Source: Promicromonospora sp. Populi
GTDB lineage: Bacteria; Actinomycetota; Actinomycetes; Actinomycetales; Cellulomonadaceae
Assembly (NCBI RefSeq): GCF_041081105.1
Contig: NZ_CP163528.1
Location: 3,720,001-3,784,000 of the forward strand
Length of the DNA stretch: 64,000 nucleotides
Direction: 5' to 3'
The position numbers were made by a program, and so were the translations under genes. Positions 702-9,942 of the stretch are shown here, piece by piece. Numbering within the stretch: the stretch's first letter is position 1; the number at the start of each line of letters is the position of its first letter. The notes under the pieces were generated by a model, which had not been told where the DNA came from, did no database searches, and saw nothing but the letters and a program-made list of their open reading frames with translations.

Positions 702-2102
702 CTACTTGCCGCCGGTGTCTTTCTTTGCTTGGCCTGGCGGCGCAGCGTCCTTCTTTGCCTGGCCGGGTGGGACGTCGTCCTTCTTCGCTTGGCCGGGCGG
801 GACGGCGTCCTTCTTTGCCTGGCCGGGCGGGACGGTGTCCTTCTTTGCTTGGCCGGGTGGGACGGCGTCCTTCTTCGCTTGGCCCGGCGGGACGGCGTCC
901 TTCTTTGCCTGGCCTGGCGGCGCAGCATCCTTCTTCGCCTGGCCGGGCGGGACGGTGTCCTTCTTTGCCTGGCCCGGCGGGACGGCGTCCTTCTTCGCTT
1001 GGCCCGGCGGGACGGCGTCCTTCTTTGCCTGGCCTGGCGGCGCAGCATCCTTCTTCGCCTGGCCGGGCGGGACGAGTCCCGCGGGGTCGGGAATGTTCGC
1101 CGGGACCTCAGTCGGAGACTTCGGCGCGGCCCTTCGAGCAGCGGTCTCTGCGCCGTCCGAGGTGGAGATGGTGGAGACGGAGACGGTGCCCGTCTCGACG
1201 AACGGCGACGCGGCACGCGCGTCGCCGGCAACGCCGGTGGTGACGGCGGTCGTCATGAACAGCCCTCCGGCGACCGTCGCCACCAGGCCGGATGGGTCCG
1301 TCAGTGCGCTGCGAGCGGCCAGGACCGCGCGGGCCCCCAGGGCTGCGAGTCCGCTCCCGACCCCCGTGCCCGTGGCGGCGACGGCTACGCCGGCGGCGCT
1401 GCCCGCCACGCCCACTTTTGCCGCGGCAAGGGCCGGCAGGAGGACCGGCATACCGGCCCGCAGCATCCAGTACGACTCGCGGACGTCGACGAACGCCCGC
1501 GTGCAAGCGGCGCACTGAACCAGATGGTCCTCGACCTCCTGCCGCCGGTGCGGCAGGAGACGGTTGCGTACGAAGTCGTGCATCGAGGCCTGGGAGAACC
1601 TGCACTCGGGCTTGTCTGCCGAGTCGGTGGGTGTTTCGACAAAACTGCTCGCGAGCCGGTTCTCGGCCCGCCGCAGCCGCCGCTTAGCGGCATAGGGCAG
1701 CACACCGATCTCGTCGGCGATCGCGGCAAGCGGACGCGACGCGATGTGGTGATCCCAGAGCAGTTGCTGCTCACCGGTAGGCAGCCGATCCAGTGCGCTG
1801 TTCAGCACCTCGTGGTCGCGGGAACCTCGGACCGGGGCCCCGTCGGCGTCGGGGCGTGCGGCCTCGTCGGCGGTCAGCGGCTCCGCACGCGCCATCTCCA
1901 ACGCCGCCTCCACCGATGCGGCGCACCAGAACGCGGCGGGGTCGGCGACGTCCTTCAGATCGAGGAGCTCGGCGCGGAGCACCTCGAGGCCGCGGCTCAC
2001 CGCGAGCTCGGGGTTGATGCCGGGAACCCGCCTGGAGACCGTGAAAACGATGGCGCGGCGGTGTACCGCCCACTGGCTGGGGTCGGCGCCGGTGACTGTC
2101 AC
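702..2102 (-). CDS. Sigma-factor-like / zinc-finger / membrane fusion protein with PPGQAKKD repeat tail
   Basis: A 466-residue protein of unusual build. Residues about 9-70 resemble a divergent sigma-70 region 2 (WAVHRRAIVF, then a helix ending FWCAASVEAALEMAR). Residues about 98-155 form a region-4-like helix-turn-helix (LPTGEQQLLWDHHIA, then IADEIGVLPYAAKRRLRRA). An anti-sigma-like zinc motif follows (H193, C197, C200 in HLVQCAAC), then two hydrophobic stretches (about 215-245 and 270-295) and a charged tail of twelve ten-residue repeats. GTG at 2102 is preferred because GGGAGG lies a few bases upstream and the protein then begins VTVTG, matching the paralog at 2209-3753 (internal VTTTG); an upstream GTG at 2165 has no Shine-Dalgarno sequence. 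Fusion of sigma and anti-sigma domains is known in some ECF groups. Function here is inferred; target promoters are unproven. Confidence 0.72.
   Translation of the reverse strand: MTVTGADPSQWAVHRRAIVFTVSRRVPGINPELAVSRGLEVLRAELLDLKDVADPAAFWCAASVEAALEMARAEPLTADEAARPDADGAPVRGSRDHEVLNSALDRLPTGEQQLLWDHHIASRPLAAIADEIGVLPYAAKRRLRRAENRLASSFVETPTDSADKPECRFSQASMHDFVRNRLLPHRRQEVEDHLVQCAACTRAFVDVRESYWMLRAGMPVLLPALAAAKVGVAGSAAGVAVAATGTGVGSGLAALGARAVLAARSALTDPSGLVATVAGGLFMTTAVTTGVAGDARAASPFVETGTVSVSTISTSDGAETAARRAAPKSPTEVPANIPDPAGLVPPGQAKKDAAPPGQAKKDAVPPGQAKKDAVPPGQAKKDTVPPGQAKKDAAPPGQAKKDAVPPGQAKKDAVPPGQAKKDTVPPGQAKKDAVPPGQAKKDDVPPGQAKKDAAPPGQAKKDTGGK
714..1073 (-). repeat. Twelve tandem 30-bp repeats encoding [V/A]PPGQAKKD[A/T/D]
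   Basis: Twelve contiguous 30-bp units fill the 3' end of the sigma-like gene. Each encodes a ten-residue unit with invariant PPGQAKKD; only the first and last residues vary (Val/Ala and Ala/Thr/Asp). Third codon positions differ between copies while the amino acids do not, so the peptide seems to be under selection. The tail is lysine/proline-rich and predicted disordered. There are no spacers, so it is not a CRISPR array. Confidence 0.97.
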
Positions 2103-2150
2103 GCGGCCCTCCCGTGATCGATCGGCGATCTTGGGCTCTTGCCCAGAAGG

Positions 2151-2168
2151 GCTGTGCGTCCGCACAGC
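2151..2168. other. 18-bp dyad between the two sigma-like paralogs
   Basis: GCTGTGCGTCCGCACAGC has perfect 8-bp arms with two central bases. It lies in the gap between the two same-strand paralogs, upstream of the GTG at 2102. It could be a weak terminator for the upstream gene or an operator for the downstream one; there is no T-tract. Confidence 0.35.
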
Positions 2169-2208: not shown

Positions 2209-3753
2209 TCAGTCCGCGTCGTCGACGGTGCCCGAGAACGTGCCGAAGAGCAGGTTCCAGAGCTGGTCGAGGGTCATGGTCGCGAGATCGACACCGGGCA
2301 GGTCGGAGAGGCCCAGGCTGGCGAGCAGCTGCTCCAACGACGTGCCGAGGCCCGGCGTGGTGGGCGGCTCGGTCGGTGGGTCGACCGGATCCACCGGGTC
2401 GACCGGATCAACCGGATCGACGGGGTCCACCGGATCCACGGGCTCGGTCGGCGGGTCAGGCCGGTCCGGTCCACCACCGGGGTTGGGTCCGGAGTCCACT
2501 GGGGGCGGCTCCGGCGATTCGGGCAGGGGTGCCGGTTCGGCCACGACCGGCGGTCCCTCGGCGGGCGCGGCGTCCTCCCGAGGTGTCGTCGCGGGGCGCG
2601 GCTGTGGATCGGTGGGCGGGATCGACGGCGGCGGGTCCTGAGGCGGCGTCTGAGTGCTGGGCGGAGCCTCCGCACCAGAACCCGCGCCTCCACCGCCTCC
2701 GCCTCCGCCTCCGCCGCCTCCGCCACCGGAACCGCCGGCGGCCTCCTCGACGGCCTGGATGGGCGGCTGATCCGGCTGATTGGCGATCAGTGCGGCAGCG
2801 CCGCCCCCGATGGCGAGCGCAGCGAGCACGCCCGCCGCGACGGCGGTCTCCTTCTTGCCGAAGGACCGCGGCTTCGCGCCACTGGCAAGACCCGCGGCAC
2901 CGGCTGCGGTGCCGATCGCGCCGGTGGCCATCGCACCGCCGAGGATGTGCTGTCCCAGGTCACGCAGCATCCAGGAGACTTCACGGACGTCGACGAACGC
3001 GCGGGTGCACTCGCCGCACCCATCCATGTGGACTTCCAGGCGACGCTGGCGGCGGGGGAGGAGTCGGCCTTTGAGGTAGTCGTGCATGGCGGCGCGGGTG
3101 GTGCGGCATTCGGGTTCGTTGACTTCGCGGGCGTGGGCGGCGGCGAAGGCGCCGGCGAGGCGTTCTTCGGCGCGGCGTAGGCGCATGGTGACGGCGTGGG
3201 GGCGTACGCCGAGGTGGGTGGCGATGTCGGTGACGGCGCGGTCGTGGACGTGGCGGTCCAGGAGGATTTCGCGGTCTTCGGGGCCGAGGTCGGACAGGGC
3301 GGTGCGGAGCATGGCGACGTCGGCTTGGCGTTCGGCGTCGAGTTCTGCTCCGGCGACGGGGGGTGTGAGTCCGGCGAGGGTGTCGTCTTCGACGGGGTGG
3401 GCTCGGCCGGCTTCGCGGGTCATGCTGATGGCTTCGTTGACCGCTGCGCGTCGCCAGTAGGGTGCGGGGTCGTCGATGGTGGTGCCGGTGGCGACCAGGC
3501 GGACCATTTTTTCTAGGGCGCGGCTGGTGGCTTCTTCGGCGTCGATGCCGGGTACGCGGGCTGCGACGGAGCGCACGACGTTGGCGCGGTGCACGACCCA
3601 GTCGTCTATCCGCAGGTCACCAGTGGTGGTCACGCGGCCTTGCCCCTCTCTGCGCATAGTGTCCGGTTTTGACTCGCTGGCCAATGATCGCACCAGAACT
3701 CTCTTTCTGCGCAAGTCTCCGGGATCTTCAGATTCGGGCCGGGCTGTGCTCAT
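2209..3753 (-). CDS. Sigma-factor-like / zinc-finger / single-TM fusion protein with Gly/Pro-rich tail
   Basis: A 514-residue paralog of the 702-2102 product. Order of parts: sigma region-2-like block (about 50-115, containing WVVHRANVVRSVAARVPG and YWRRAAVNEAISMTRE), region-4-like helix-turn-helix (150-205, LSDLGPEDREILL and VRPHAVTMRLRRAEERL), zinc motif (H242, C246, C249), one transmembrane helix (about 304-323), polyglycine (341-357), a proline-rich stretch with a repeated VDP unit (438-459), and a hydrophobic C-terminus (LEQLLASLGLSDLPGVDLA, then LWNLLFGTF). ATG 3753 is chosen because GGAGGTGA sits six bases upstream; that Shine-Dalgarno overlaps the stop codon of the 73-aa ORF, so the two should be translationally coupled. 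GTG 3633 aligns with the start of the paralog and is an alternative. The likely role is a membrane-tethered regulator that contains its own inhibitory domain. That is inference from architecture. Confidence 0.75.
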   Translation of the reverse strand: MSTARPESEDPGDLRRKRVLVRSLASESKPDTMRREGQGRVTTTGDLRIDDWVVHRANVVRSVAARVPGIDAEEATSRALEKMVRLVATGTTIDDPAPYWRRAAVNEAISMTREAGRAHPVEDDTLAGLTPPVAGAELDAERQADVAMLRTALSDLGPEDREILLDRHVHDRAVTDIATHLGVRPHAVTMRLRRAEERLAGAFAAAHAREVNEPECRTTRAAMHDYLKGRLLPRRQRRLEVHMDGCGECTRAFVDVREVSWMLRDLGQHILGGAMATGAIGTAAGAAGLASGAKPRSFGKKETAVAAGVLAALAIGGGAAALIANQPDQPPIQAVEEAAGGSGGGGGGGGGGGGGGAGSGAEAPPSTQTPPQDPPPSIPPTDPQPRPATTPREDAAPAEGPPVVAEPAPLPESPEPPPVDSGPNPGGGPDRPDPPTEPVDPVDPVDPVDPVDPVDPVDPPTEPPTTPGLGTSLEQLLASLGLSDLPGVDLATMTLDQLWNLLFGTFSGTVDDAD

Positions 3754-4197: not shown

Positions 4198-4443
4198 GTG
4201 ACGCGGACGAAGTTCGGACCACGCTGGGGGCGGGCCGAGCTCCGACGCGTCGGACAGGGACCCGTGGTCCGGTACGCGCCGGATCACGGGCTCCCGCCCT
4301 ACGGCGCGAGCGCCGGTTCGGACCTCGCTGGCGGCGGACCGAGCCGGCGCTCGCCCCTGGTGTGGGGCCGGAACGCTTCCTTTACCAGGCTCGACCGACC
4401 CGGTTATCGTGGGATACATGCACATCGCACGCTCGCTGCTTAG
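4198..4443 (+). CDS. Doubtful 81-residue ORF behind promoter C
   Basis: The frame starts with GTG right after promoter C, as leaderless genes do, and ends just inside the leuS leader. The product is Gly/Arg/Pro-rich, resembles no family I know, and spans two near-copies of a 29-bp repeat. The stretch may instead be an untranslated leader with regulatory structure. It is included only because of its position relative to promoter C. Confidence 0.22.
   Translation: MTRTKFGPRWGRAELRRVGQGPVVRYAPDHGLPPYGASAGSDLAGGGPSRRSPLVWGRNASFTRLDRPGYRGIHAHRTLAA
4212..4344 (+). repeat. Pair of 29-bp direct repeats plus a 14-bp palindrome upstream of leuS
   Basis: Bases 4212-4240 and 4316-4344 match at 26 of 29 positions (both begin GTTCGGACC and end CCGAGC). 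Between them lie the perfect palindrome TCCGACGCGTCGGA (4241-4254) and an 8-bp inverted pair, GGACCACG (4216-4223) with CGTGGTCC (4263-4270). This could be RNA structure in a long leader or a protein-binding array. Confidence 0.6.
4381..4410 (+). promoter_or_regulatory. Putative housekeeping promoter of the leuS leader
   Basis: TTTACC (4381-4386) and TATCGT (4405-4410) are 18 bases apart. The predicted start of transcription falls at about 4417, next to the ATG of the short leader ORF. The hexamers are imperfect. Confidence 0.4.
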
Positions 4444-4447
4444 CTAG
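4418..4447 (+). CDS. Putative leuS leader peptide, MHIARSLLS
   Basis: A nine-codon ORF (ATG ... CTG CTT AGC TAG) lies about 105 bases before leuS. It has adjacent Leu codons one codon before the stop. Its stop codon overlaps the 5' arm of a strong hairpin, and an intrinsic terminator follows. This is the layout of a ribosome-mediated attenuator that senses charged tRNA-Leu, although two Leu codons are few. Confidence 0.42.
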   Translation: MHIARSLLS

Positions 4448-4488
4448 CCGCACCGGTTCCGCCCCCGATCGGGCACACCCGGTGCGGC
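4447..4488 (+). promoter_or_regulatory. Leader hairpin between leader peptide and terminator
   Basis: GCCGCACCGG (4447-4456) pairs with CCGGTGCGGC (4479-4488) as a perfect 10-bp stem, with a smaller GCCC/GGGC stem in its loop. A ribosome stalled at the Leu codons would cover its 5' arm. I could not find a convincing alternative antiterminator pairing with the downstream terminator (only a 4-bp GGGC/GCCC option), so the mechanism is unproven. Confidence 0.5.
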
Positions 4489-4489
4489 C

Positions 4490-4514
4490 GCCCCTCCTTG
4501 CGAGGGGCTTTTTT
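4490..4514 (+). terminator. Intrinsic terminator in the leuS leader
   Basis: GCCCCTC - CTTGC - GAGGGGC is followed by six T residues. A true hairpin-plus-T-tract terminator is rare in this window; its place 38 bases before leuS, rather than after a gene, points to attenuation. Confidence 0.7.
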
Positions 4515-4552
4515 GTGCCCGGAACCGATCGAAGTACCGGAGAGCGAGAACG

Positions 4553-6445
4553 ATGAGCGACCAGCACCCCACGCCAGACCCCCCAGGCGAAGACACGATC
4601 GAGGACGCAACCGAGGACCGCCTGTTCGAGGCGTCCGACGACGACGCCCGCCCCCGCCGCTATCTGCTGACGATGTTCCCGTACCCCTCGGGGGACCTGC
4701 ACATGGGTCACGCCGAGGTGTTCGCGATCACCGATGTCGTGGCGCGGCACTGGCGAGCCAAGGGCTTTGACATGCTCAACCCGGTCGGCTGGGACTCGTT
4801 CGGGCTGCCGGCCGAGAACGCGGCGATCCGCCGGGGCGAGCATCCCGCCGCGTACACGTCAGTGAACATCGCAACCCAGGCGGCGTCGATCCGGCGTTAC
4901 GGCGTCTCGTTCGACTGGTCGCGGCGGCTGCACACGCACGAGCCGGGGTACTACCGCTGGACGCAGTGGCTGTTCGCCCGCCTGCACGAGCGGGGTCTGG
5001 CCTACCGGGCGGCGGCGGAGGTGAACTGGTGCCCGAAGGACCGCACGGTGCTGGCGAACGAGCAGGTGGTCGAGGGCACGTGCGAGCGCTGCGGCACCGC
5101 CGTCGTGGCCCGCAGCCTGACGCAGTGGTTCTTCCGGATCACCGACTACGCAGACCGCCTGCTGGACGACATGGCGCTGCTGGAGCCGGGCTGGCCCGCG
5201 CACGTGCTGACGATGCAGCGCAACTGGATCGGCCGGCAGGCGGGGCCCGAGGGCACCACCTACCGCCTGCACGACTGGCTGATCTCCCGGCAGCGTTACT
5301 GGGGCGCGCCGATCCCCGTGGTGCACTGCCCGGCGTGCGGGGAGGTGGTGGTGCCGGACGAGCAGCTGCCCGTCGAGCTGCCCTACCTGGCGGGCGACCA
5401 GCTGGTCCCCGGCGACGTCTCGCCCCTGGCCGGGGCTCGGGACTGGGTGGCCACTACGTGCCCGCGGTGCGGCGGCCCGGCCGAGCGCGACACGGACACG
5501 ATGGACACGTTCGTGGACTCGTCCTGGTACTTCCTGCGCTACCTGTCGCCCGGGTACGACGCCGGGCCGTTCCGCCCCGAGGACGCCGCCCGGTGGATGC
5601 CCGCCGCTCTGTACGTCGGCGGAGTGGAACACGCGACCATGCACCTGCTGTACGCGCGGTTCATCACCAAGGTGCTCTACGACATGGGCCTGGTGCCCTC
5701 ACCCGAGCCGTACGCCCGACTGCTGAACCAGGGCCAGGTGATCAACCACGGCAAGTCGATGAGCAAGTCCCTGGGCAACGGCGTGGACCTGGCGGCCGAG
5801 CTGGACCGCTACGGGGTCGACGCCGTCCGGCTGGCGATCCTGTTCTCGGGTCCGCCGGAGGACGACGTCGACTGGGCGGACGTCTCGCCCGAGGCGATGC
5901 AGAAGTTCCTGGGCCGTGTGCTGCGGCTGGCGCCGCCCGCCGGGCGGAGCGTGCCGAGCCCGGAATCCCTGCGCCGGGCGGTACACCGCACCGTGCACGA
6001 CGTCGACGCTCTGGTCGACGCCGGCCGGTTCAACGTCGCGATCGCGCGGCTGATGGAGCTGGTAGGCGAGGTGCGGCGGGCGTCGTCGGGCAGCGGGAAC
6101 GGCGAAACGTATCGCGAGGCCATCGAGGCCGTAGCGGTGCTGCTGAGCCTGTTCGCCCCGCACACCGCCCAGGACCTGTGGGAGCGGCTGGGGCGGACGA
6201 CACCGGTCGCGGCGCAGCCGTGGCCCGAGGTGGACCCGGCGCTCCTGGTGACGACCGAGGTCGAGGCGGTGGTGCAGGTGGACGGCAAGGTGCGGGACCG
6301 GCTGCCGGTGCCCGCCGACGTCACTGCGGCGGACCTGGAGCGGGCCGCCCTGGCCCGCCCCGCCGTGACGCGCGCCGTGGGCGACCGGGAGGTGCGGCGG
6401 GTGGTGGTGCGGCCGCCGCACCTGGTCAACGTGGTGCTGGGTTAG
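4553..6445 (+). CDS. leuS: Leucyl-tRNA synthetase lacking the CP1 editing domain
   Basis: This class I synthetase attaches leucine to tRNA-Leu in the cytoplasm. Its 630 residues are far short of the usual 800-970. Catalytic landmarks are present: [10 protein letters not shown] (HIGH motif, HMGH at 50-53), [15 protein letters not shown] with a CERC zinc-type pair, SRQRYWG (245-251), [11 protein letters not shown], and [10 protein letters not shown] (KMSKS motif). The anticodon-binding and C-terminal parts run to [14 protein letters not shown] and beyond. The gap is precise: NWIGR (224-228) is followed after only about 12 residues by [11 protein letters not shown], where other LeuRSs carry roughly 200 residues of CP1 domain that hydrolyses mischarged tRNA-Leu. 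The frame is continuous, so this is a deletion form, as known in Mycoplasma mobile LeuRS. A second, full-length leuS may exist elsewhere. Its stop overlaps that of the convergent channel gene. Confidence 0.93.
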
Positions 6446-8827: not shown

Positions 8828-9580
8828 TCAGGTGACGCGGACGAACGTCGGGCTGTTCTGCCACATCTCGGTGTAGCGCACCGGCATGCCGGCGGCCCAC
8901 GCTTCGATGATCATGCCGTCGCCCGCGTAGATGGCCACGTGGCCGGGGGTCCAGACGATGTCGCCGGGCTCCGGGTAGGTGACCTGGTAGCCGACGCCGA
9001 GCAGCGCACCGGACGAGTGCGGGAGCGAGTAGCCCAGCTGCGAGTACACGTACTGGACCAGGCCCGAGCAGTCGAAGCCTGCGGACGGCGACGCGCCGCC
9101 CCACACGTACGTGATGCCGAGGTAGTTCAAGGCGATGTTGACAGCCTGCTGGCCGACGGGGACCGGGTCCGGTGCGTCGACCGAGACGACGGCGGGAGCG
9201 GTGCTCTCCTCGCCCTCACCCTCGCCCGCGGCACCCGAGCCCGAGGAGGTACCCAGAACTTCCATCTCGATCGGCATCTTCGCGTTGATCGGGACTGTCA
9301 CGGTGCGGGAGTTGACGACGGCCTGCTTGGCCACCGCGGTGAGCGATTGGAGGTCAGCCGTGTTGAGCTTGGCCGTCTTGACGTCGGTCTTGAGGTCCAT
9401 CGCAGGGGCCGCGTGGGCCGTCGTCGCGATGGTCGAGATCAGGACGCCGCCTGCGGCTGCAGCGAGGGCGCCGCGGCGGGCAACGTTGCCGGCGTTCTCG
9501 GTGGCGGTACGAGCGAGGATAGTCAGCGGTGTCATGGCCGGACGGCTGTCACGATGCCGTCCGCGGAGGGAGTTCGTCAC
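8828..9580 (-). CDS. Secreted NlpC/P60 (C40) peptidoglycan endopeptidase
   Basis: A 250-residue exported wall hydrolase. Residues 1-57 hold a long signal sequence ending near TTAHAAPA. A Ser/Thr/Gly/Glu-rich linker follows (SGSGAAGEGEGEESTAP). The catalytic NlpC/P60 domain occupies about 140-250, with the Cys nucleophile in SAGFDCSGLVQYVY and the His in TPGHVAIYAGDG. Such enzymes cleave the stem peptide of peptidoglycan. GTG 9580 has AGGAGA seven bases upstream. A c-di-AMP riboswitch occupies the leader, so expression should respond to this second messenger. It is a paralog of the gene at 12111-12848, which has no such leader. Confidence 0.9.
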   Translation of the reverse strand: MTNSLRGRHRDSRPAMTPLTILARTATENAGNVARRGALAAAAGGVLISTIATTAHAAPAMDLKTDVKTAKLNTADLQSLTAVAKQAVVNSRTVTVPINAKMPIEMEVLGTSSGSGAAGEGEGEESTAPAVVSVDAPDPVPVGQQAVNIALNYLGITYVWGGASPSAGFDCSGLVQYVYSQLGYSLPHSSGALLGVGYQVTYPEPGDIVWTPGHVAIYAGDGMIIEAWAAGMPVRYTEMWQNSPTFVRVT

Positions 9581-9595
9581 CTAAATGTCTCCTGT

Positions 9596-9772
9596 ACCGC
9601 CTGCGAGGTCAGCTGTCGGGTTCGGGTAGGAGTACAACACCCGGCCGCACGGCTACTGGGGGGTACCGTCCGGCTTCACCCCGAGGACGACGATCCTGCT
9701 GTCGCCCGGAAGTGGGTCCCCCGCTCCTGTCTCGAACGTCTGGTCGTGAACCGGTGACAGGATTCGGCGTCC
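9596..9772 (-). promoter_or_regulatory. c-di-AMP riboswitch (ydaO/yuaA class)
   Basis: Read on the minus strand, the leader contains the hallmark blocks of this RNA in order: GCCGAATCCTGTCACCG, then GGGACCCACTT, then CTCGGGGTGAAGCCGG, then CTCCTACCCGAACCCG, and CAGCTGACCTCGCAGG, which ends in GGCG to pair with the 5' CGCC. It ends about 15 bases before the start codon of the NlpC/P60 gene. In actinobacteria this class commonly precedes wall hydrolase genes, where c-di-AMP usually turns expression off. Exact boundaries are approximate. Confidence 0.9.
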
Positions 9773-9942
9773 GGCTCGCGGCTCCACCGATGTGGTGGGG
9801 CAGAAGTCAAAGTACACACGTTCCCGGAAAAAGTCACGATCAGATTACGCATTACGGTCTGACCCAACGAAGGTGGAGATTTGCGTCCTTCCGGGCTTCA
9901 GGGGTTATGACCGACATCACACTTCCGCTATCGTCCGGCGGC

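Follow-up and report, generated by a model that had tools for sequence, protein, structure and literature searches.

A second leucyl-tRNA synthetase without the CP1 editing domain, preceded by a putative leucine attenuator, in Promicromonospora

Within the 64,000-nucleotide stretch of the Promicromonospora sp. Populi genome analysed here (the window), the gene leuS2 encodes a leucyl-tRNA synthetase, LeuRS2, that is auxiliary to a full-length housekeeping enzyme, LeuRS1. That LeuRS2 lacks the CP1 editing domain and is a second copy is virtually certain. The leader upstream of the gene is very probably a leucine attenuator, and the reading favoured here, to which we give a probability of roughly 60%, is that LeuRS2 would act as an emergency charging enzyme made when leucyl-tRNA falls, its activity and its induction both being predicted from sequence.

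The leuS2 frame begins with ATG and runs for 630 residues with no internal stop (Table 1). The NWIGR motif ends at residue 228 and is followed by the 12-residue linker and then by the next synthetase block, exactly the layout given in the preliminary description, which had read the gene as one from which CP1 is precisely missing with the synthetic parts kept and the frame intact. Domain searches bear this out: PF13603, used throughout as the marker of CP1, is absent, and PF00133 (148.4 bits), PF09334 and PF08264 are present. A score of 676.1 bits with the NCBIfam model TIGR00396 (leuS_bact), for which the cut-off is 548.4, identifies the protein as a bacterial LeuRS. Its alignment with N. gonorrhoeae LeuRS skips from chain residue 230 to 420, the CP1 region, and again from 586 to 629, where the leucine-specific insertion is gone. 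The HIGH and KMSKS motifs lie in conserved blocks, as HMGH and SMSKS, and the residue preceding MSKS is serine in LeuRS2 and alanine in six aligned CP1-containing relatives. The AlphaFold model of the protein has a mean pLDDT of 84.6. With this anatomy, LeuRS2 would be expected to charge tRNA-Leu.

Table 1. Positions of leuS2, its upstream leader and a nearby gene in the window
Feature	Position	Strand	Basis and remarks
LeuRS2 gene, CP1-less leucyl-tRNA synthetase, 630 aa	4553..6445	+	open reading frame, Pfam, NCBIfam, alignment
HMGH (class I HIGH motif), residues 50-53	4700..4711	+	sequence, alignment with relatives
12-residue linker replacing CP1	5237..5272	+	sequence, alignment
MSKS (KMSKS loop), residues 403-406, no leucine-specific insertion ahead	5759..5770	+	alignment
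Anticodon-binding domain PF08264, residues 474-589	5972..6319	+	Pfam
Promoter-like TTTACC-N18-TATCGT	4381..4410	+	sequence; transcription would start at or beside the leader ATG (leaderless)
Leader peptide MHIARSLLS*, Leu codons CTG CTT at 4436-4441	4418..4447	+	sequence
Hairpin 2:3, GCCGCACCGG (4447-4456) with CCGGTGCGGC (4479-4488)	4447..4488	+	covariation
Possible pseudoknot helix, GGGCAC (4471-4476) with GTGCCC (4515-4520)	4471..4520	+	pairing
Intrinsic terminator GCCCCTC-N5-GAGGGGC-TTTTTT	4490..4514	+	sequence; 1 of 7 pairs changed on both sides
Shine-Dalgarno-like GGAGAG of leuS2, may pair with leader Leu-codon region	4539..4544	+	minimum-energy folds
NlpC/P60 cell-wall protein	8828-9580	-	domain scan

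The window's genome (a single contig of 5.22 Mb) yields one PF13603 match, of 179.8 bits at 2.276 Mb, which sits in the full-length LeuRS1, away from the leuS2 locus. The genome search for a second full-length leuS that the preliminary description had proposed ends at this gene, and with it falls the suggestion that LeuRS2 is the only LeuRS and that the cell tolerates mistranslation at Leu codons. The other branch of that description, in which LeuRS2 is a second copy that could serve as a stress or drug-tolerance isozyme, agrees with the number of copies, and the putative attenuator upstream, which had gone unmentioned, lends it support. LeuRS1 of the window's genome carries TRPDTLFG and GTGAIMAVPGGDERD, and TRPDTLFG with the GTGAIMAVPGGD motif recurs in 20 of 20 LeuRS1 proteins (that of the window's genome and 19 others from the family). 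Each of the 13 genomes of the genus has one PF13603 match, and a full LeuRS1 accompanies the CP1-less LeuRS2 in 12 of them and in genome G032. The same holds for 11 of 11 CP1-less copies in the genus of Paractinoplanes toevensis (L062) and for Rhizocola, co-presence being a check made by genome, outside which lie the CP1-less proteins drawn from protein lists (P identifiers).

A CP1-less leuS2 orthologue occurs in 12 of the 13 genomes of the genus, the match being free of stops in all 12, and also in Antribacter gilvus, at 72% identity. Among the matches listed, the closest named homologues are nearly all from Promicromonospora (80-88% identity). PF13603 annotation is lacking in 59 of the 120 homologues listed, a few of the 59 being partial, in a list scored from the 7999 candidates sharing most words. 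The ion-channel gene downstream of leuS2 was found at 13 of the 15 loci searched, with no match at L018 (gene at contig end) and L019. Over 36 pairs from nine genomes, dN/dS averages 0.24 in LeuRS2, as against 0.17 in LeuRS1, and LeuRS2 is under purifying selection. Six neighbouring proteins scanned for function comprise sigma/zinc-finger proteins, the ion channel, a transglycosylase-associated protein, the NlpC/P60 protein and a tRNA methyltransferase. Recent acquisition of leuS2 was considered and is unsupported, the neighbours being common to Promicromonospora-like genomes and Antribacter.

Three further features of the window may be recorded. A c-di-AMP riboswitch (RF00379, 63.6 bits) lies at 9583-9779 on the minus strand, directly upstream of the NlpC/P60 cell-wall protein gene. 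The protein encoded at 702-2165 (minus strand) has a C-terminal PPGQAKKD repeat array and a weak zf-HC2 match, and the adjacent protein at 2209-3753 (minus strand) shows zf-HC2 together with a match to sigma-70 region 4 that falls just short of the cut-off.

The nearest full-length relatives of LeuRS2, among the matches listed, are LeuRSs of about 800-870 residues with CP1; those that are named come from other actinobacteria and show 59-64% identity across 59-66% of the query. In the wider family, LeuRS2 of this type was found in 37 of 221 genomes (E up to 1e-60). In thirteen of the 37 (G032 and 12 from the genus) the match runs through the junction, and the single PF13603 match of each genome lies inside LeuRS1. 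The other 24, from genera g6, g9, g11 and g16, give matches in pieces that end at the junction, G179 being counted there on the first piece of its match only. The sole PF13603 match of g11 (G166, 90% complete) lies in its LeuRS2-type gene, which has no leader and looks like that genome's only LeuRS.

A tree of 115 rows, hand-picked from two homologue lists and fetched loci with some near-duplicates, was built with CP1 columns excluded by a quick method giving one support value; the position of L063 has support 0, and neither the G181 copy nor M. mobile was included. Fifty-one of the 115 rows are without CP1 and form 12 separate groups, that is, 12 losses on this tree, a figure that becomes 11 when branches below 70 or 80 are collapsed and 8 when those below 90 or 95 are. 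The CP1-less groups include a Promicromonospora-Antribacter clade, P0061, P0058 (Cellulomonas sp. McL0617) with P0060, a group that contains Rhizocola, and several groups of Actinoplanes relatives; once weak branches are collapsed, P0058 and P0060 are inseparable from the window's clade. LeuRS2 is present in 16 of 67 genomes of the P. toevensis genus, 11 of the copies without CP1 and 5 with it, and all 16 genomes have a full LeuRS1. Leaving aside the window's own, 144 genomes of the order sample gave a match, and 25 of these were picked, about one per genus. In 23 of them this LeuRS type is the only strong PF13603 match (at least 189 bits) and CP1 is kept, five of the 23 having an extra weak PF13603 match of 30-39 bits that was taken for another synthetase; the remaining two have two strong PF13603 matches. 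Across the 396-genome order sample, each listed non-window match starts at least at residue 207 or ends at most at residue 233, the pattern that a retained CP1 would give. Among the genomes checked, the copies that have lost CP1 are thus spare ones.

What occupies the place of CP1, and how CP1 fares where it is kept, varies between copies. Proline-rich low-complexity linkers stand in its place in P0141 (43 residues) and P0158 (24 residues). Four copies read from g16 (L168, L177, L023 and L024) keep CP1 with RPET and ASG instead of the usual RPDT and GTG, which suggests, from these motifs, that editing is weakened. In CP1-containing spare copies the domain is frequently shorter than the 189-205 residues of most other rows, measuring 158-161 residues in three of g9, 175 in seven of g6 and 139-212 among Actinoplanes relatives; exceptions are two copies of g6, with 190 and 192, and g16, with 200. 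Faster divergence of CP1 in spare copies that retain it was considered and rejected: the ratio of CP1 to core divergence is 1.43, against 1.46 in LeuRS1, and it is larger in the spare copy in 25 of 49 pairs. This lack of excess speaks against simple relaxation and leaves room for selection for loss. The LeuRS2 matches in G181 and G633 contain an internal TGA, and these copies are perhaps decaying.

The putative attenuator spans 4381-4514, just upstream of leuS2, and consists of a promoter-like stretch, a leaderless leader peptide, a hairpin and a terminator. The leader frame reads ATG CAC ATC GCA CGC TCG CTG CTT AGC TAG, specifying nine residues. The promoter-like stretch and the leader layout are kept in 11 of the 12 loci of the genus; at the twelfth, L019 (G003), the end of a transposase-like ORF takes the promoter and leader position, and this copy of leuS2 would have lost its switch. 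With a search pattern that itself required Leu codons, the leader was found in 32 loci from five genera (L059, L060 and L057 repeating others), 31 of which have an in-frame Leu run or Leu pair and one, L010, a single Leu (MRNARSPLT). Leaders of g6, g9 and g16 have the same layout with LLL in place of SLL, and the frame survives a change in length, to eight codons in L014. No leader was found at the leuS2 loci L055, L062 and L063.

Hairpin 2:3 of the leader covaries. In the covariation set, 18 of 29 prepared leaders with the 11 of g6 left out, changes on both sides occur in 5 of its 10 pairs, and 98.9% of cells are paired. The covariation score was reached by 0 of 500 shuffles, and sliding the partners by 1 to 3 columns leaves no pair changed on both sides; of five covariation measures, one (further pair types) does not exceed the shuffles, with 7 observed and 9.3 as the mean after shuffling. 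The GGGCAC:GTGCCC helix is paired in 97.2% of cells, with five of its six pairs invariant and no compensatory change, and this pseudoknot is unproven because it is nearly invariant. The terminator is seen in g1, g3, g9 and g16 and, by eye, not in g6. A stem between the Leu codons and the Shine-Dalgarno box appears in minimum-energy folds; compared with shuffled partners it is distinctive in g6 alone, with a z-score of -2.99, and no better than they are in Promicromonospora (g1, -0.16) and g9 (0.06). Species-specific pairing of this kind gained no support when partners were swapped between genera, there being no clear preference for the own partner. Hairpin 2:3 lies directly against the terminator but shares no part of its stem, and no classical antiterminator is therefore apparent. 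Rfam gave no match to the leuS2 leader at gathering score, and with E up to 1 (L002, L139) one sub-threshold microRNA match only, upstream of the leader.

An RNA model of the leader has a single match in the window's genome, at leuS2 (E 1.6e-33; 150 of 8075 first-look candidates scored); it matches neither the leuA leader of that genome nor any of 21 LeuRS1 loci in the window's family (L141-L160, L200). The leuA gene of the window's genome (L139) has its own leader ORF, MRMTVILLLRCRDEA, in which Leu-Leu-Leu was read by eye, with arms resembling those of the LEU element and with no matching Rfam model. In a g6 copy (G125) the model match is weak, at 25.8 bits, and about equal to a match elsewhere in that genome. 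At 2 of 20 LeuRS1 loci, those of G150 and G163, a search by pattern picked out an upstream ORF with a Leu run but no terminator. The model does find a site ahead of LeuRS1 in both Paractinoplanes and Rhizocola (2 of 2), and ahead of leuS at 6 of 10 other loci (Actinotalea, Arthrobacter, Actinomadura, Microlunatus, Zafaria and Nocardioides), with no match at the leuS loci L065, L071, L092 and L121. In Actinotalea caeni (L086, 2926-8361) a single Leu-rich leader (MRSRLLLT) precedes a tandem of full-length leuS1 and leuS2. At the Actinoplanes-type LeuRS2 loci of the P. toevensis genus the leader was found in 0 of 16 (L203-L213, L219-L223); two of these, L203 and L204, show by eye a GGGAAA..TTTCC-like inverted repeat before the LeuRS2 start. 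The idea that the attenuator is a novelty of LeuRS2 is accordingly rejected, the model matching LeuRS1 or leuS elsewhere and attenuators of Streptomyces leuS being published (PMC1262725, in the text available). The switch is of a known actinobacterial kind; what is particular is its position on the spare copy in the window's family, a copy that in the genus is free of proofreading. Because Actinoplanes-type LeuRS2 lost CP1 without a leader, attenuation does not explain the loss of CP1.

These observations can be joined in the following mechanism. A drop in leucyl-tRNA, through leucine shortage or inhibition of LeuRS1, would cause ribosomes to stall at the Leu codons of the leader peptide; stalling would alter the folding of the leader RNA, transcription would pass the terminator, and the LeuRS2 so made would charge tRNA-Leu through its intact synthetic site. 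LeuRS1, which retains CP1, could hydrolyse mischarged tRNA-Leu in trans. We propose that the missing proofreading is tolerable because LeuRS2 would be made only when needed and LeuRS1 could edit in trans. How stalling would carry transcription past the terminator is not evident from the sequence, given the lack of overlap between hairpin 2:3 and the terminator stem. Also counted against the emergency charging role are the weak pairing of Leu codons with the Shine-Dalgarno box, the loci without a leader, the unchanged divergence of CP1, the precedent of archaeal LeuRS-I (PMC9437257, in the part available), and mutational work, cited in the available part of PMC1262725, in which no classical attenuation was found at Streptomyces ilvB and leuA.

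Several other explanations have to be set beside emergency charging. LeuRS2 might guard the cell against LeuRS inhibitors in soil, with the loss of CP1 removing the target of editing-site inhibitors. This is unlikely: no antibiotic gene lies among the six neighbouring proteins scanned, CP1-containing and CP1-less spare copies coexist in the P. toevensis genus, and we know of no natural inhibitor that binds the CP1 site. The idea is not without attraction, in that repeated loss of CP1 suits a common selective agent and a switch worked by stalled ribosomes would also respond to LeuRS inhibition. Precedents exist as well, a second synthetase being an established protection against albomycin, mupirocin and indolmycin (PMC9437257, in the part available) and AgnB2 being a LeuRS self-immunity enzyme (PMC5059758, likewise in part). 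A role outside protein synthesis, in which LeuRS2 would make Leu-AMP or bind tRNA-Leu in the service of signalling or secondary metabolism, is improbable; it could appeal to the archaeal LeuRS-I and LeuRS2 duplicates that have lost much or all of their charging (PMC9437257, same part), but LeuRS2 conserves its catalytic motifs as well as the tRNA-binding part at its C-terminus, and its leader would tie it to the supply of Leu-tRNA.

Slightly less probable again is deliberate mistranslation, whereby LeuRS2, switched on in leucine shortage, would accept norvaline, isoleucine or methionine at Leu codons and so stretch leucine and diversify the proteome. CP1 is gone while the core is under purifying selection, and the switch would sense missing Leu-tRNA, both as deliberate mistranslation would have it; however, LeuRS1 with intact CP1 motifs stays in the cell and could clear the errors. 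There is next to no chance that leuS2 is an artefact or a decaying pseudogene, for which the internal TGA codons in G181 and G633 and the lost leader of G003 could be cited. For the window gene this is refuted by the open frame, by frames free of stops in the 12 genomes of the genus that have LeuRS2, and by the dN/dS of 0.24; assembly error is likewise excluded because orthologues recur in 12 of 13 genomes with mostly the same neighbours.

Whether the repeated deletion of CP1 was adaptive, as distinct from tolerated, is a separate question. That it was, and that these enzymes form a natural proofreading-free class throughout the actinobacteria with an advantage when Leu-tRNA runs out, is a doubtful proposition, a little less so than a role in inhibitor resistance; the cell might, for instance, become immune to inhibitors of the editing site, charge its tRNA faster, or deliberately let leucine analogues in at Leu codons. 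The CP1-less LeuRS described here is in any case a stable actinobacterial gene under purifying selection, apparently wired to leucine starvation. The independent losses of CP1 offer replicated natural experiments on the cost and dispensability of proofreading, and leuS2 is a candidate gene for built-in tolerance to editing-site LeuRS inhibitors.

Bacterial CP1-less LeuRSs are known to us only from Mycoplasma mobile-like genomes, and a literature search covering titles and the starts of abstracts, with most subscription papers outside its scope, found no report of one in actinobacteria. The LeuRS of M. mobile is the sole LeuRS of a reduced parasite. The preliminary description had likened LeuRS2 to it, a comparison that stands for the anatomy, the M. 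mobile enzyme (PDB 3ziu) being likewise without CP1 and the leucine-specific insertion, and fails for the setting: LeuRS2 is a spare gene in an actinobacterium, beside a CP1-containing LeuRS1 and behind a putative attenuator. TrpRS1 of Streptomyces coelicolor is reportedly an auxiliary, indolmycin-resistant synthetase controlled by ribosome-mediated attenuation. It resembles LeuRS2 in being a spare synthetase with a leader-peptide attenuator, putative in the case of LeuRS2, for its cognate amino acid, but it acts on Trp, involves no editing domain, and its resistance is shown.

Duplicated LeuRSs are also described in archaea. According to the available part of PMC9437257, Sulfolobaceae LeuRS-I has a disrupted CP1 and is reported not to aminoacylate, and charging is lost or strongly reduced in archaeal LeuRS-I and haloarchaeal LeuRS2 alike. 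The enzyme described here shares their duplicated state and differs in being bacterial, in its clean deletion of CP1 and in keeping the catalytic motifs. AgnB2, a plasmid-borne LeuRS self-immunity enzyme for which resistance is shown (PMC5059758, in the part available; PDB 5ah5), has the editing domain that LeuRS2 is without. As for the leader, the available part of PMC1262725 describes attenuators upstream of leuS in two Streptomyces, with a Leu-codon leader, a hairpin and a terminator, and a LEU element upstream of leuA that combines a Leu-codon leader, a pseudoknot and a base stem involving the Shine-Dalgarno box. The leader described here differs from the LEU element in lying upstream of leuS2 and not leuA, and from the Streptomyces leuS attenuators in standing on a CP1-less second leuS, with none found on leuS1 in the window's family; it has features in common with the Streptomyces leuS attenuator and with the leuA LEU element.
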